Origin: Bacillota bacterium
GTDB taxonomy: Bacteria; Bacillota; UBA4882; UBA10575
Length of the DNA stretch: 43,414 bases
Assembly: GCA_012735135.1 (NCBI GenBank)
Contig: JAAYHY010000056.1
Location: forward strand, 1-43,414
Direction of reading: 5' to 3'
Shown: positions 32,950-41,067 of the stretch, piece by piece
Layout: each line of letters starts with the position of its first letter
Position numbering within the stretch: position 1 is the stretch's first letter
Notes under the pieces: model-generated
Told to the model about the DNA's origin: nothing
Seen by the model: only the letters and a program-made list of their open reading frames with translations
Databases searched by the model: none
Made by a program: the position numbers and the translations under genes

Positions 32950-33130
32950 CGGGAAAGATTAATTTTTTGTTTGACCGTTTTGTCCAGCCGGGACCATGGG
33001 TTTCTTCCCATGACGATTTGCTTGGTAAAGCCACCTTGTTCATTATGGCGAAGAAAATTACAGATCCAATGTATATAATTCCCCGGAATGGTAAATACTG
33101 ATTACAAATACTTTTCCGGGGGGGATTTTG

Positions 33131-33886
33131 ATGTTCCGTGCTTTTCTGCGGAAAATCCTCTTTTCACTCTGTTTTTTATTCCTCTTTACGATGCGTTACA
33201 TAGATCAGACTTTTAGCGTGGCCATCAATGACCATCCCTTACTGGCCGGATGGGAAGGAATGGGGGTTCCCCTGACCGAGATTCAGATCGAAGGTTGGAA
33301 AAAATTGAATAGTGAATTCATGGCCTCGGCCGATCTGATGAAACTCGCCACGAGTGTTGAGAAGCGGCTGAAACTGAAAAGGACCGCCCCGCCGCTAATT
33401 GGGGATGAGCTTGATTTCAGCTATTTAACTCTGGAGGGAAAGCTGGATGATCAGGTGCCGGTGGTGCTTACGTTGCAGTCGATCCGTGATGATGCCAATT
33501 TGGCGGAGTCCTTTTGCGGAGTCATTGCGTTGCCGAAGACCAAGGAAATGCTGACCGAGACGATGCTCCGGCTGAAGCGGGCTTTGGATCCGGTGGTGGG
33601 GGAGTTTCCCCTGGCGGTCATGTTGGGCGGGGTTAAGCCCGGGCAACTTACGGAAGGAGAAGCTTACCAACTGATGAAAAGGGCCTTCCAACGTTTACAA
33701 GTAACCGGCGGGAACGGTGGGGTTGATTTAACCTCCGGACGATGGTCGGCCTGGAGCAATCTCCTCGAAGGAAAGGTGGTCCGGGAGGGTAGACACATCA
33801 ACCTGGAGTTTGGTTACAGATATGTGGAAACGGAGAACTTAACCCGGATTATCCTTGCGTCGCCGACGTTGCCCGGTTATTTCTAG
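33131..33886 (+). CDS. ywmB: YwmB-like protein
   Basis: A 251-residue protein with an N-terminal membrane segment or signal (about 4-22). The exported part has the layout of the YwmB (TATA-box-binding-like fold, DUF1779) family, with the conserved C-terminal FGYRYVETENLTRIILASPTLPGYF. Its function is unknown. In Bacillus the gene heads the ywmB-murA-spoIID-spoIIQ-spoIIID-mbl neighbourhood, and the same downstream genes occur 6-9 kb further on here. ATG 33131 has GGGGGG six bases upstream. The match rests on faint similarity plus context. Confidence 0.72.
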   Translation: MFRAFLRKILFSLCFLFLFTMRYIDQTFSVAINDHPLLAGWEGMGVPLTEIQIEGWKKLNSEFMASADLMKLATSVEKRLKLKRTAPPLIGDELDFSYLTLEGKLDDQVPVVLTLQSIRDDANLAESFCGVIALPKTKEMLTETMLRLKRALDPVVGEFPLAVMLGGVKPGQLTEGEAYQLMKRAFQRLQVTGGNGGVDLTSGRWSAWSNLLEGKVVREGRHINLEFGYRYVETENLTRIILASPTLPGYF

Positions 33887-34007
33887 AGTAATATAATGGA
33901 AACCTGGTGAACAACCCGGGCTATTTTTCAAGGTAGAAAGAGGAATTTACGAAAGCGGCGCCTAATTCTAACCTCGAGCGGAGATCTTTCCCGCCGGAGG
34001 TGGAATG

Positions 34008-34856
34008 ATGAAAAAACTGGTCCTCAGCATTGTTGTATTAACCATCTTTTTTACTTCCCTGCCGATCATGGCCGCTTCTTGGCAGCTGGGTTTGGATTGG
34101 CAATGCAAGGAAGAGGTTGCTCCGGAAGCATTAAAGTTAAATTGGTGGTTTGCCCCCCGGTGGGGATTACGTTCCGTCTACACTTGGGAAGAGCAGGATC
34201 TGGGTTTAGCCGTGCTGTACATTCCGCAATCCCGGTCCGCTTTTCACTCCTACATTGGTCTAGGGGTACGGGACACGCTGGACTATAACAGGTTACCCAT
34301 CGACCAGCGGCTTGAGTTAACCACCGGTTTTGAACTCCGATTGGACCGGCTGCTCAAGGGACTCTCCACGGCTGTCGAAGGCCGTCTCGTTCTGGCGAAC
34401 CTGGTGGGAGCAGAGAACCGGTTGGCGCCTTTTTTTGGTTTTGCGCTTCATTACGGATTCACCCCGGTCACCTTCCGGGCGCCAAAGCATGTTGATTCGG
34501 ACCTTTACTTACTGGCCAAACTAATCCGGGCGGAAGCGGAAGGCGAGCCCTATGAGGGACAGGTGGCCGTTGGGGCCGTCGTGATGAACCGGGTGAAAAG
34601 TCCGCAGTTCCCCAATACGATTTACGATGTGATTTACCAACCCGGCCAGTTTAGTTGTCTGCCCAAACTGGCCACCCTGGAACCGAATGACCAGTCGTTG
34701 CAGGCGGCCCGGGAGGCGATGGCCGGCCGGGATCCTTCCCGCGGCGCTTTATATTACTACAATCCCAAACTGGCTTCCCGGGAAGGAGCGAGGTTTTTTC
34801 AGACCGCCAAGCTAAAGCGTACAGTCACCATCGGGAACCATCAATTCTTTAAATAA
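34008..34856 (+). CDS. SleB-type cell wall hydrolase with N-terminal beta-barrel-like domain
   Basis: A 282-residue exported protein. Signal peptide 1-23 (PIMAA-S). From about 165 to the end lies a Hydrolase_2/SleB domain: LYLLAKLIRAEAEGEPYEGQ with the candidate catalytic Glu, AVGAVVMNRV, GQFSC and ALYYYNP. SleB proteins are lytic transglycosylases of the spore cortex or cell wall. Residues 25-151 are not a peptidoglycan-binding domain: I count about eight amphipathic strands (e.g. ALKLNWWFA, WGLRSVYTW, LGLAVLYI, YIGLGV, LELTTGFELRL, APFFGFALHYGF) ending in Phe, as in small outer-membrane barrels. The second of two adjacent ATGs is seven bases from GGAGG. The barrel call is inference; the hydrolase is firm. 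Confidence 0.85.
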   Translation: MKKLVLSIVVLTIFFTSLPIMAASWQLGLDWQCKEEVAPEALKLNWWFAPRWGLRSVYTWEEQDLGLAVLYIPQSRSAFHSYIGLGVRDTLDYNRLPIDQRLELTTGFELRLDRLLKGLSTAVEGRLVLANLVGAENRLAPFFGFALHYGFTPVTFRAPKHVDSDLYLLAKLIRAEAEGEPYEGQVAVGAVVMNRVKSPQFPNTIYDVIYQPGQFSCLPKLATLEPNDQSLQAAREAMAGRDPSRGALYYYNPKLASREGARFFQTAKLKRTVTIGNHQFFK

Positions 34857-34862
34857 CAGGTC

Positions 34863-37412
34863 TTATCTTTCAACAGATCGCTGATTCCGCAATCGTAATT
34901 CACCCCAGCCGGCTTTGTCCGGTTGGGGTGAATTCTTTTCCGGTGCTTTCGGTTCGTATCCTCCGGCAGCTGCTTGGTTGGGCCGACCGGAATTATCCGC
35001 AGGCGGCACGGAGCGTTGGTCCCGGCCCGGCGCCGGTTGTTCGCTGTCTTGGGCGGACGTTTGGGCTGAAGGTTGCTTCGGGAGAGGATCCCAAGAGGGT
35101 CCGGAAGGCTTTTCCGGGGAATGTTCCCAAGACGGTCCAGAAGGCAGTTGGGGAATTTGACCCCAAGACGGTCCGGAAGGCTGTTGGGGAGTCTGGCCCC
35201 AAGACGGTCCGGGAGATTCTCCCGGTGGTTGGGCCGGGATCTCCTCCCCCTCTTCCGGGAGAGGCGCCTGCCCTAAAGACTGTTCGGGGCCTTGTCCCTG
35301 CTCCATCCGGCCCGGAATCTGCTCCGCGCCTTGATCGGGAACCTGTTCCACCCCTTGCTCCGGAATCTGTTCCGTCCCTTCCTCCGGAACCTCTTTTTCC
35401 GGTTTAATCTTTTTCGGCCAGGTGGTAAACCAACGCCAAATCTTATAGGAAGTACTTTCCGGCACCTTATTCTCGGCAAAGACTTCCGGATAGGAGTTTT
35501 TATTAACCCAAGCCGGAACGGCCTGGCCGGTTTCGGGATCCACATGCGCCCAGATGATCCCTTCCGGTTCGGGGAAGGCCGTTACCGGCAAGCCGGCGGT
35601 AATCTCGGCCATATAATCCCGCCAAACGGCGGCGGCGGTGCCGCCCCCCACTACGCCCTCTTTGTAGCGCATCGGTTCGTCCTGCCGGTCATTGCCAATC
35701 CAAACCGTGGTCAAATATTCGGGTGTGTATCCGACAAACCAAGCATTAGTGTAATCGCTGCTGGTTCCGGTTTTTCCCGCCACCGGGCGGCCGTCGGGAA
35801 GCTGGGCCCGCTGTCCGGTACCCTGGGCCACCACATCTTGTAACAATACGGTCATGATATAGGCGGTTTGCGGACTAATGACCGGCCGGCCTTCTTTCAG
35901 TTTGAAGGTCTTAATCGTCTTGCCCTGATAATCGGCGATGCGGACAACGGCGTAAGGCGCCATGTATTTACCCTGGTTGGCAAAGGAAGTATAAGCGGCG
36001 GTCAACTCCAGCGGAGTGACTCCCTTGGTCAATCCGCCCAAGGCCAGCGGGGCATAACCCAGATCATTAACTTGTCCTTCCCGGACCAGACTTTCAATCC
36101 CCATCTGCTCCATTTGGTTGGCCACGGTAGGAATGCCAAGGGTCTGGACCAGTTGAACCGCAATGGTGTTGACCGATTCCCTTAAAGCTTGACGAAGGGT
36201 GATCTTGCCCTGATACTCCCGGTTACTATTCTCCGGCGACCAGACCTGTCCATTGGCCAACGGGATCTCCAAAGGTTGATCATAAAGGATGGTAGCGGCG
36301 GTAAAATTCTGTTCCAAAGCAGTGGCGTAGACAAAGGGTTTCAAGGCGGAGCCCGGCTGCCGGTAAGCCTTCACGCTCCGGTTCAGTGGGCTGGTGGGAT
36401 AGTTGCGTCCGCCGACCATGGCCAGGATCGCGCCGGTTTTCGGGTCCAGCGTCACCAGGGCCGCTTCCGGTTGCACCTCCGCTGAGTAACGGGGGAGGTG
36501 CTTGAGGGTGACCTCCGCCGCTTGTTGGCAAGCCAGGTCCAAGGTGGTGTAAATCTGGTAACCACCCCAGAGTAATTCCTCTTCGGTAAAGCCCAGGTCG
36601 GCGGTTAGGTAATCGCGGAGGTAATCCAGGAAATAAGCGCCGACGGAGGAGCGCTCCTCTTGGGGTTTCACCCCTAAACCCTTGGCAATTGCCGTTTTAT
36701 ACTGTTTTTCCGTAATATACTCCTGTTCCCACATTTTGCGGAGGACCAGATCCCGCCGGCCTTTTGCCGCTTCCGGATGTTTGTAGGGGGAGTAGTTTTC
36801 CGGGCTCTGGATGATCCCGGCCAGCAACGCCGCTTCTTCCAGGTTAAGCTGGGCCGCGGATTTATTAAAGTAATAACGGGCGGCGGCTTCCACGCCCACG
36901 TTCCCGTGGGCCAGGTTGATACTGTTCAAGTAGAGTTCCAGGATCTCGTCTTTGGTATAGGTCCGCTCAATGAGGAGGGCATAGAACATATCTTGCAACT
37001 TCCGGGTGATGGTCCGGTCCAAAGTTAACAGGGAGATTTTGGCCAGCTGCTGGGTGATGGTGCTTCCCCCCTGGCGCAGTCCGCCCGGGATGATCGTTTG
37101 GTAGACCGCCCGGGCAATGCCGATGGGATCCAAGCCGAAATGCCGGTAAAAACGGGCGTCTTCCGTGGCCACGACCGCTTTCTTCAGGTAGGGGGAGATT
37201 TTGTCGGAGGAGACCCAGATCTTGCGGTGGGAAAATAAATTACCGATCAGTTGGCCGTTCCGGTCGTATACTTTAGAAACATAACGCATACTCTCCACTT
37301 TACTCCGGAGATCCTTCGGCAACGTTACCGTGGCGAAGAGAAAACCGGTCAAAAATAAGAGTAAGAAAAAGATATAATAAAGGGGAAATCGGCGTTTTTT
37401 ATTCCGAGGCAT
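34863..37412 (-). CDS. Class A penicillin-binding protein (bifunctional) with repeat tail
   Basis: This 849-residue PBP has a basic cytoplasmic N-tail and one span (about 10-28). The GT51 transglycosylase has ATEDARFYRHFGLD (catalytic Glu near 83) and GGSTITQQLAK. The transpeptidase has SALKPF (Ser near 354), SVN in ALRESVNTIAV and KTGTSSDYTNAWFVGY (near 546). After about residue 625 comes a 200-residue Pro/Gln/Gly/Glu-rich tail with 12-residue tandem repeats. It polymerises and crosslinks peptidoglycan outside the membrane. GGAG is eight bases before ATG. The tail is likely an extended wall-spanning segment. It may serve spore or vegetative wall synthesis; its place in a sporulation block suggests a PbpF-like role but does not prove it. 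Confidence 0.95.
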   Translation of the reverse strand: MPRNKKRRFPLYYIFFLLLFLTGFLFATVTLPKDLRSKVESMRYVSKVYDRNGQLIGNLFSHRKIWVSSDKISPYLKKAVVATEDARFYRHFGLDPIGIARAVYQTIIPGGLRQGGSTITQQLAKISLLTLDRTITRKLQDMFYALLIERTYTKDEILELYLNSINLAHGNVGVEAAARYYFNKSAAQLNLEEAALLAGIIQSPENYSPYKHPEAAKGRRDLVLRKMWEQEYITEKQYKTAIAKGLGVKPQEERSSVGAYFLDYLRDYLTADLGFTEEELLWGGYQIYTTLDLACQQAAEVTLKHLPRYSAEVQPEAALVTLDPKTGAILAMVGGRNYPTSPLNRSVKAYRQPGSALKPFVYATALEQNFTAATILYDQPLEIPLANGQVWSPENSNREYQGKITLRQALRESVNTIAVQLVQTLGIPTVANQMEQMGIESLVREGQVNDLGYAPLALGGLTKGVTPLELTAAYTSFANQGKYMAPYAVVRIADYQGKTIKTFKLKEGRPVISPQTAYIMTVLLQDVVAQGTGQRAQLPDGRPVAGKTGTSSDYTNAWFVGYTPEYLTTVWIGNDRQDEPMRYKEGVVGGGTAAAVWRDYMAEITAGLPVTAFPEPEGIIWAHVDPETGQAVPAWVNKNSYPEVFAENKVPESTSYKIWRWFTTWPKKIKPEKEVPEEGTEQIPEQGVEQVPDQGAEQIPGRMEQGQGPEQSLGQAPLPEEGEEIPAQPPGESPGPSWGQTPQQPSGPSWGQIPQLPSGPSWEHSPEKPSGPSWDPLPKQPSAQTSAQDSEQPAPGRDQRSVPPADNSGRPNQAAAGGYEPKAPEKNSPQPDKAGWGELRLRNQRSVER
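34897..34940 (+). terminator. sleB terminator embedded in the 3' end of pbp
   Basis: AATTCACCCCAGCCGG and CCGGTTGGGGTGAATT pair with loop CTTTGT (16-bp stem, one G-T pair), followed by CTTTTC. It lies antisense inside the last codons of the convergent PBP gene. On the other strand no T run follows. Confidence 0.75.
35067..35210 (-). repeat. Tandem repeat 4 x 36 bp in pbp
   Basis: Four units, each starting with GPSW and coding for 12 residues (GPSWGQTPQQPS, GPSWGQIPQLPS, GPSWEHSPEKPS, GPSWDPLPKQPS). The frame is kept in all. Confidence 0.95.
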
Positions 37413-40128: not shown

Positions 40129-41067
40129 ATGCGACAGGCGATTGGCGGGATCTTTCTTTTTTTCTTTGCCCTCCTCTGTTTATTACCCCTTTTTTTGGTG
40201 AATTGCCAGCCTAAGCAGGCGGACTTGACGGTCCGTCTCTATTTAAAAGAGGAGAAAAAAACAATCACCCTGACTCTGGAGGAGTATGTCAAAGGAGTGG
40301 TGGCCGGGGAGATGCCGGCCCATTTTCACCTGGAGGCCTTGAAAGCCCAGGCGGTGGCGGCCCGGACCGTAGCGGTCCGCCGGTTAAAGCGTTTCGGCGG
40401 CGCCGGGTACCCGGGAACCGATGCCGATCTCAGCGACGATGTGCAGGACTCCCAAGCCTGGCTCAATAAAAAGCAGTTAATTGCCAAATGGGGCCTTTGG
40501 GGCTACTACCAAAACTGGAGCAAGATTGCGGCGGCGGTGGAGGCGACGGCCGGGTTAATCTTAACCTATAACGGAGAGCTTATTGATGCCCTTTACCATT
40601 CCACCAGCGGGCCGCGGACCGCCAATGCGGAAGAAGTTTGGGGGACGCCCGTTCCTTATCTCAAGAGTGTGCCGTGCTCCTTTGATCAACATTCTCCCCG
40701 CTACCGCCAAGAGCAGGTTTTTACCGTCGAAGCCCTCCTCTCCGCCTTGGGGCACGGTGGTAAACTGCCGGCGACCGCTCTTCCCCTCCGGGTTATAGAC
40801 CGGACGGCCAGCGGCCGGGTGAAGACAGTGCAGGTGGGGGAGAAACTCTACCGCGGCGTGGAGTTCCGTTCCCGTTTAGGTTTGGCTTCCACCAATTTTA
40901 CCATTCACCGGCAGGAAGACAAGGTGATTGTTACCACCACCGGTTACGGGCATGGGGTTGGCATGTGCCAGTATGGCGCCGACGGTTTGGCGAAGGAGGG
41001 CAAGACTTTCCAGGAGATTCTTCACTATTACTATCAGGGGGTGGAAATCAGGAAACTCCGGTTTTAA
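40129..41067 (+). CDS. spoIID: Stage II sporulation protein D (lytic transglycosylase)
   Basis: A 312-residue SpoIID. An N-terminal membrane span (about 5-24) is followed by the exported enzyme domain. LEEYVKGVVAGEMPAHFHLEALKAQAVAARTVAV holds the catalytic Glu of GEMP. YHSTSGPRTANAEEVWG and GYGHGVGMCQYGADGLA form the other conserved segments with zinc-linked residues. SpoIID cuts septal peptidoglycan in the mother cell during engulfment together with SpoIIM and SpoIIP. The GGAGG seven bases before ATG is clear. A weak sigma-E-like pair (TTATAAT at 40002, CATAGGGT at 40023) lies in the 173-base upstream gap. Confidence 0.95.
   Translation: MRQAIGGIFLFFFALLCLLPLFLVNCQPKQADLTVRLYLKEEKKTITLTLEEYVKGVVAGEMPAHFHLEALKAQAVAARTVAVRRLKRFGGAGYPGTDADLSDDVQDSQAWLNKKQLIAKWGLWGYYQNWSKIAAAVEATAGLILTYNGELIDALYHSTSGPRTANAEEVWGTPVPYLKSVPCSFDQHSPRYRQEQVFTVEALLSALGHGGKLPATALPLRVIDRTASGRVKTVQVGEKLYRGVEFRSRLGLASTNFTIHRQEDKVIVTTTGYGHGVGMCQYGADGLAKEGKTFQEILHYYYQGVEIRKLRF

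Follow-up and report, generated by a model that had tools for sequence, protein, structure and literature searches.

Within the window, that is, the whole 43,414-nucleotide stretch of DNA analysed from a Bacillota bacterium, we identified a gene whose product joins a signal peptide, a predicted eight-stranded outer-membrane-type barrel and a SleB-type hydrolase domain in one polypeptide. The protein very probably follows an OmpA-like plan, in which a secreted, BAM-inserted barrel would bear a periplasmic SleB-type lytic transglycosylase. The fold, the fusion, its conservation, and the outer-membrane and sporulation genes of the host were all demonstrated by computation. By analogy with known systems, the protein appears to be a new combination of known parts: an OmpA with an enzyme in the position of the peptidoglycan-binding domain, or a SleB with a barrel in the position of the same domain. 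We found no report of a barrel-SleB fusion in the open-access literature searched, and one may exist elsewhere.

Gene and domain layout

The features of the gene, its product and its surroundings are collected in Table 1. The program-listed open reading frame spans 34005-34856 (+); the ATG at 34008, which lies 7 nt from GGAGG (33996-34000), was chosen over 34005 as the start because of its better spacing to this motif. Residues 1-22, read by eye as the signal peptide, lack a lipobox Cys, and Pfam detected no SLH domain in the fusion protein. Farther upstream, an element of roughly GGAATTTACC ... GCCTAATTTA (window 33938-33978) is partly conserved across two genera; a promoter call from the upstream region was rejected, as this region is too variable and holds only a short conserved element. 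The flanking genes recur in close relatives to the extent given in Table 1, and distant members of the class carry other neighbours around the fusion gene.

Table 1 Features of the barrel-SleB fusion gene and its surroundings (positions in the window).
Feature	Position	Strand	Basis or remark
YwmB-like protein (DUF1779) gene	33128..33886	+	directly upstream; neighbour conserved in the family
Ribosome-binding site GGAGGTGG	33996..34003	+	read from the sequence; identical in 7/7 aligned same-genus sequences
Barrel-SleB fusion gene	34008..34856	+	encodes 282 aa
Signal peptide, Sec type, residues 1-22	34008..34073	+	judged by eye from the sequence
Predicted eight-stranded outer-membrane-barrel domain, residues 23-151	34074..34460	+	AF2, Foldseek, face analysis, orthologue PF13505 match
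Barrel strands 1-4, residues 24-32, 39-47, 52-59, 64-75	34077-34103, 34122-34148, 34161-34184, 34197-34232	+	AF2
Barrel strands 5-8, residues 79-87, 102-111, 119-128, 142-150	34242-34268, 34311-34340, 34362-34391, 34431-34457	+	AF2
Last strand FFGFALHYGF	34431..34460	+	alignment of 24 relatives
Flexible linker, residues about 152-162	34461..34493	+	low pLDDT; length and sequence vary
SleB-type lytic transglycosylase domain (Hydrolase_2, PF07486), residues about 163-282	34494..34853	+	Pfam, structure match
Glu176 codon, proposed catalytic glutamate	34533..34535	+	invariance and alignment to 4f55
Class A penicillin-binding protein (PBP1A type) gene	34863..37412	-	converging; neighbour conserved in most of the family
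SpoIID gene	40129..41067	+	TIGR02870, 350 bits vs cut-off 235

Predicted fold of the barrel domain and the attached hydrolase

The preliminary description had read about eight alternating strands, ending in LHYGF, between the signal peptide and the SleB domain, had likened them to small outer-membrane barrels, and had proposed structure prediction of the region both alone and in the whole protein. AlphaFold2 (AF2), run on a 24-sequence alignment of the domain, modelled residues 23-151 as exactly eight strands (mean pLDDT 88.3, pTM 0.79), the last of which ends in LHYGF; prediction of the whole mature protein from a separate alignment (n = 20) returned the same eight strands followed by a SleB fold. 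Both models therefore agree with that description, and residues 23-151 are predicted to form a closed eight-stranded barrel. The linker is the sole poorly predicted part of the whole-protein model (pLDDT about 47), and the pTM of 0.50 for this model suggests that the barrel and SleB domains have no fixed mutual orientation.

We compared the barrel model with solved structures in the PDB using Foldseek, and the membrane domain of OmpA ranked first (2ge4; E 1.9e-4, TMq 0.64, rmsd 6.8 Å), followed by PagL, Opa60, OmpW, a designed transmembrane barrel and OmpX. All 16 top matches are transmembrane barrels, the soluble nitrophorin appearing at rank 17 (E 0.023), so the nearest solved structures bear out the outer-membrane-barrel pattern noticed earlier; the likeness of the model to the OmpA structure itself is moderate. 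The whole-protein model matched both SleB (E 1.9e-10) and OmpA (E 5.7e-5). Loop lengths in the AF2 model alternate in the manner of outer-membrane proteins, with loops of 6, 4, 14 and 13 residues on one side and 4, 3 and 7 on the other. Beta-sandwich, SPOR-like and peptidoglycan-binding folds were considered for residues 23-151, and none was seen in the Pfam or Foldseek results.

Analysis of the two strand faces, with strand limits set by a model built on these same sequences, revealed a mean octanol-scale difference of 1.72 versus 0.69 ± 0.18 for shuffled sequences, and none of 20,000 shuffles reached 1.72. The apolar face consists of Leu, Val, Trp, Tyr, Phe, Ala and Ile, with 3.7% polar residues, and the second face of Gly, Ala, Glu, Arg, Ser and Asn, with 41% polar residues; the latter is better conserved (entropy 1.53 versus 1.77 bits). 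Composition and conservation together argue that the hydrophobic face would point outward.

Alignment of 24 relatives showed that Gly and Tyr positions and the aromatic end of the barrel domain are kept. The last strands of orthologues read GVSLQYKF, GLSLNYRF and GLSINYQF, and that of the window protein, FFGFALHYGF, resembles the beta-signal of outer-membrane proteins. Curated profiles lend support that does not depend on the model: the barrel domain of one orthologue (L119) scored 33.6 bits against PF13505 (OMP_b-brl; cut-off 28.7), and another copy, L160, matched the same family weakly (E 0.009). Over the barrel domains of the 24 members, the best-scoring Pfam families were OMP_b-brl, Opacity and OmpW, with scores ranging from weak to significant. 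The barrel domain of the window protein itself matched no Pfam family, and a sequence search of this domain against the PDB gave no match.

The C-terminal domain is certainly of the SleB type. It matches PF07486 (Hydrolase_2) with an E value of 1.6e-32 (112.5 bits against a cut-off of 27), by sequence it is closest, among solved structures, to the SleB catalytic domains 4f55 and 4fet, and comparison with Bacillus anthracis SleB (4fet) gave 39% identity and a TM score of 0.86. Glu176, within the AEAxGEP motif, is invariant in 24 of 24 sequences, as is the SleB core, and its counterpart in the alignment with 4f55 is the YGESRGEP glutamate. In Bacillus, SleB depends on a glutamate for its lytic transglycosylase activity (PMC12331253). 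The fusion protein scored 125.6 bits against the SleB equivalog TIGR02869, below the cut-off of 236.5. No Pfam match to the N-terminal peptidoglycan-binding domain of SleB proper was found in the fusion protein, where the barrel occupies that place. That SleB proteins usually carry a peptidoglycan-binding domain there, as the preliminary description held, agrees with published accounts (PMC12331253) and with the LysM-type paralogues of the same genome: the host encodes four other Hydrolase_2 proteins, two of which contain LysM domains by Pfam (C147, C96), with LysM-like repeats in C51.

Distribution of the fusion and the host envelope

The search for the same fusion in related genomes, another step proposed at the outset, returned full-length matches to the fusion profile in 22 of the 29 genomes of the host's class. 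Genome G027 encodes two copies (L119, L110), and G028 has a second copy, L160 (4404-4961), which is cut by the end of its contig; the second copies in these two genomes carry the barrels most like PF13505. The contig-cut gene (G028:C174) was at one point a candidate stand-alone barrel and was rejected as such, so it gives no evidence for free barrels. Among named records, the highest identities are to unclassified Bacillota MAGs and to a Hydrogenispora sp.

Beyond the host's class, a phylum sample of 398 genomes contained a single clear fusion, L133 in G040 (E 2.9e-4 with the first profile, and 1.6e-24 with a later profile that includes L133 itself). Weak matches in the same sample, with per-genome E values of 0.002-0.1, are no more than chance would give across 398 genomes, and the four that we inspected (L145, L148, L149 and L150) contained no fusion. 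One of these, L145 (1339-2241 in G348), is a 301-aa frame with a Tyr/Gly/Leu-rich end and a barrel-profile E value of 0.0024, about one such match being expected over 398 genomes; it has no attached hydrolase and is possibly a free small barrel.

The SleB domains of 24 fusion proteins examined, that of G040 included, form one clade (support 0.965), which stands apart from LysM-type and other paralogues, with C147 and C51 on separate branches. This single clade suggests one old fusion event. The dN/dS ratio of the barrel was about 0.07-0.19 in four same-genus pairs, a fifth pair being saturated, and as judged from these ratios the barrel domain is under purifying selection. In the phylum sample (n = 398), the fusion occurred in 14 of 102 Omp85-positive genomes and in none of 296 Omp85-negative genomes (Fisher p 2.6e-9, a value uncorrected for, and hence inflated by, kinship).

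The preliminary description considered a hydrolase hung from an outer membrane to fit a diderm spore former and pointed to BamA and Lpt genes as a check, and the host genome proved consistent with both. It contains four Omp85 (BamA-type) matches, one of which shares a cluster with genes for OmpH, an LpxD-type acyltransferase, LptF/G and a protein of the LptA type. The LptF/G and LptA-type genes flank one for a 736-aa signal-peptide protein (G000:C131:4785-6992, L152) with no Pfam or NCBIfam match; judged by position, it is possibly a divergent LptD. Omp85 is present in all 29 class genomes and in G040. SpoIVA was found in 28 of 30 genomes searched, the host among them, and SpoIID lies in the window; both agree with a spore former. 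Several spore-formers of the class do not have the fusion, and one genome with the fusion, G026 (89% complete, highly fragmented), gave no SpoIVA match. Only its Hydrogenispora relative and the preliminary description tie the host genome to the Limnochordia; members of this class are described as diderm Firmicutes, with Limnochorda pilosa cited as a Gram-negative spore-former (PMC11456536).

The envelope of the host was also searched for tethers. MotB is the only PF00691 match in the genome, so the PF00691 search yields no OmpA or Pal tether, and an SLH search revealed no SLH-porin (OmpM). Two short proteins (G000:C29:45732-45845 and G000:C79:6136-6258; L169, L170) combine a signal peptide, one SLH domain and a coiled coil with a hydrophobic helix at the C terminus, the plan of Thermotoga Omp-alpha, and are candidate outer-membrane tethers.

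Proposed role, alternatives and relation to known systems

We propose that the Sec system would export the fusion protein and that the BAM machinery would insert residues 23-151 into the outer membrane as an eight-stranded barrel. Both barrel ends would lie in the periplasm, because the number of strands is even and the longer loops are opposite the ends. The flexible linker would then suspend the SleB-type domain on the periplasmic side, where Glu176 would cleave the glycan strands of peptidoglycan, in either the vegetative wall or the spore cortex; membrane insertion, topology and enzymatic activity are what we infer from the models and alignments. The barrel would stand in for the usual PG_binding_1 or LysM peptidoglycan-binding domain and would thereby keep the enzyme at the sacculus's outer edge. 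The protein may also link the outer membrane to the wall.

Alternation of faces alone cannot tell which face is outside, and soluble barrels, nitrophorin included, do turn up further down the Foldseek ranking (E 0.02-0.1); both points favour a soluble lipocalin-type eight-stranded barrel with its hydrophobic face inside, which would not span a membrane but would target the SleB domain and bind, in the periplasm or the spore, a lipid or muropeptide. We regard such a barrel as very unlikely, however, since every higher-ranked structural match is a transmembrane barrel, an orthologue passes the OMP_b-brl cut-off, the last strand is OMP-like and clear fusions occur only in Omp85-positive genomes. 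Moreover, in a lipocalin the hydrophobic core should be the conserved part, whereas here the Gly/Ala/Glu/Arg face is more conserved, which a packed polar membrane-barrel interior fits better. An outer-membrane barrel whose SleB-like domain mainly binds peptidoglycan, making the protein an OmpA-like tether and not an enzyme, would agree with its OmpA-like plan and with the sole PF00691 match being MotB. This, too, is improbable: the invariance of Glu176 and the SleB core exceeds what binding alone needs, and the Omp-alpha-like SLH proteins may already act as tethers.

A membrane-inserted barrel bearing an active enzyme is our preferred reading, and one sub-case compatible with it concerns germination. 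Diderm spore-formers have an outer spore membrane that is proposed to become the outer membrane, and the fusion protein could sit in this membrane with its SleB domain toward the cortex, replacing CwlJ and SleB or acting beside them. The SleB-type domain, the occurrence of SpoIVA in nearly all genomes searched, the adjoining YwmB gene and the nearby SpoIID gene in the window all speak for such a role. The score below the SleB equivalog cut-off, the four other Hydrolase_2 proteins that could be cortex enzymes, the missing SpoIVA match in the fragmented G026 and the spore-formers of the class without the fusion speak against it, and no sporulation promoter was recognised upstream of the gene. 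On balance, we hold a germination role to be plausible but somewhat less probable than its absence. The fuller version, in which a germination enzyme in the outer spore membrane holds its cortex-lytic domain against the cortex exterior and goes back to an ancestor, shared by at least two classes, that was diderm and formed spores, is doubtful.

Comparison with known systems places the protein between established families. It shares with enterobacterial OmpA, the best solved-structure match of its barrel model, an N-terminal eight-stranded outer-membrane barrel, a short linker and a C-terminal periplasmic domain acting on peptidoglycan; unlike OmpA, whose periplasmic domain is the peptidoglycan-binding PF00691, it has a SleB-type transglycosylase, and its barrel gave no sequence match to OmpA. 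Assignment as OmpA proper was rejected, since the PF00691 domain is absent from the fusion protein. Bacillus SleB has the same catalytic fold and catalytic Glu (4f55, 4fet), but an N-terminal peptidoglycan-binding domain where the fusion has a predicted membrane barrel. With PF00691 absent and the TIGR02869 cut-off not reached, the protein is a strict member of neither OmpA nor SleB. The LysM-Hydrolase_2 proteins of the host (C147, C96, C51) likewise combine a signal peptide with Hydrolase_2, but bear wall-binding LysM repeats in the place of the barrel. The PF13505 OMP_b-brl, Opacity and OmpW families are small outer-membrane barrels with profile matches to some fusion members, and we know of none among them with an attached cell-wall hydrolase. 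OmpM of diderm Firmicutes also pairs an outer-membrane barrel with a periplasmic part touching peptidoglycan (PMC10628300), but OmpM is a porin that forms trimers and carries its SLH domain at the N terminus, whereas the fusion has a small barrel first and an enzyme as its wall domain; identity with OmpM was rejected, as the protein has no SLH domain, only eight strands and no large C-terminal porin barrel.

We consider the arrangement to bear on how wall enzymes reach the outer membrane. Outer-membrane peptidoglycan hydrolases of well-studied diderms are typically lipoproteins. Only Gracilicutes have the Lol lipoprotein machinery, and most Terrabacteria diderms are without the well-characterised tethers (PMC10628300). 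A transmembrane barrel anchoring a wall-cutting enzyme would be another route for wall enzymes to the outer membrane in this lineage. With an enzyme domain of the spore cortex-lytic family, the protein may also offer a handle on the connection between wall remodelling, the outer membrane and sporulation in diderm Firmicutes. If the outer-spore-membrane reading were true, one protein would link spore germination to the origin of the outer membrane in diderm Firmicutes.
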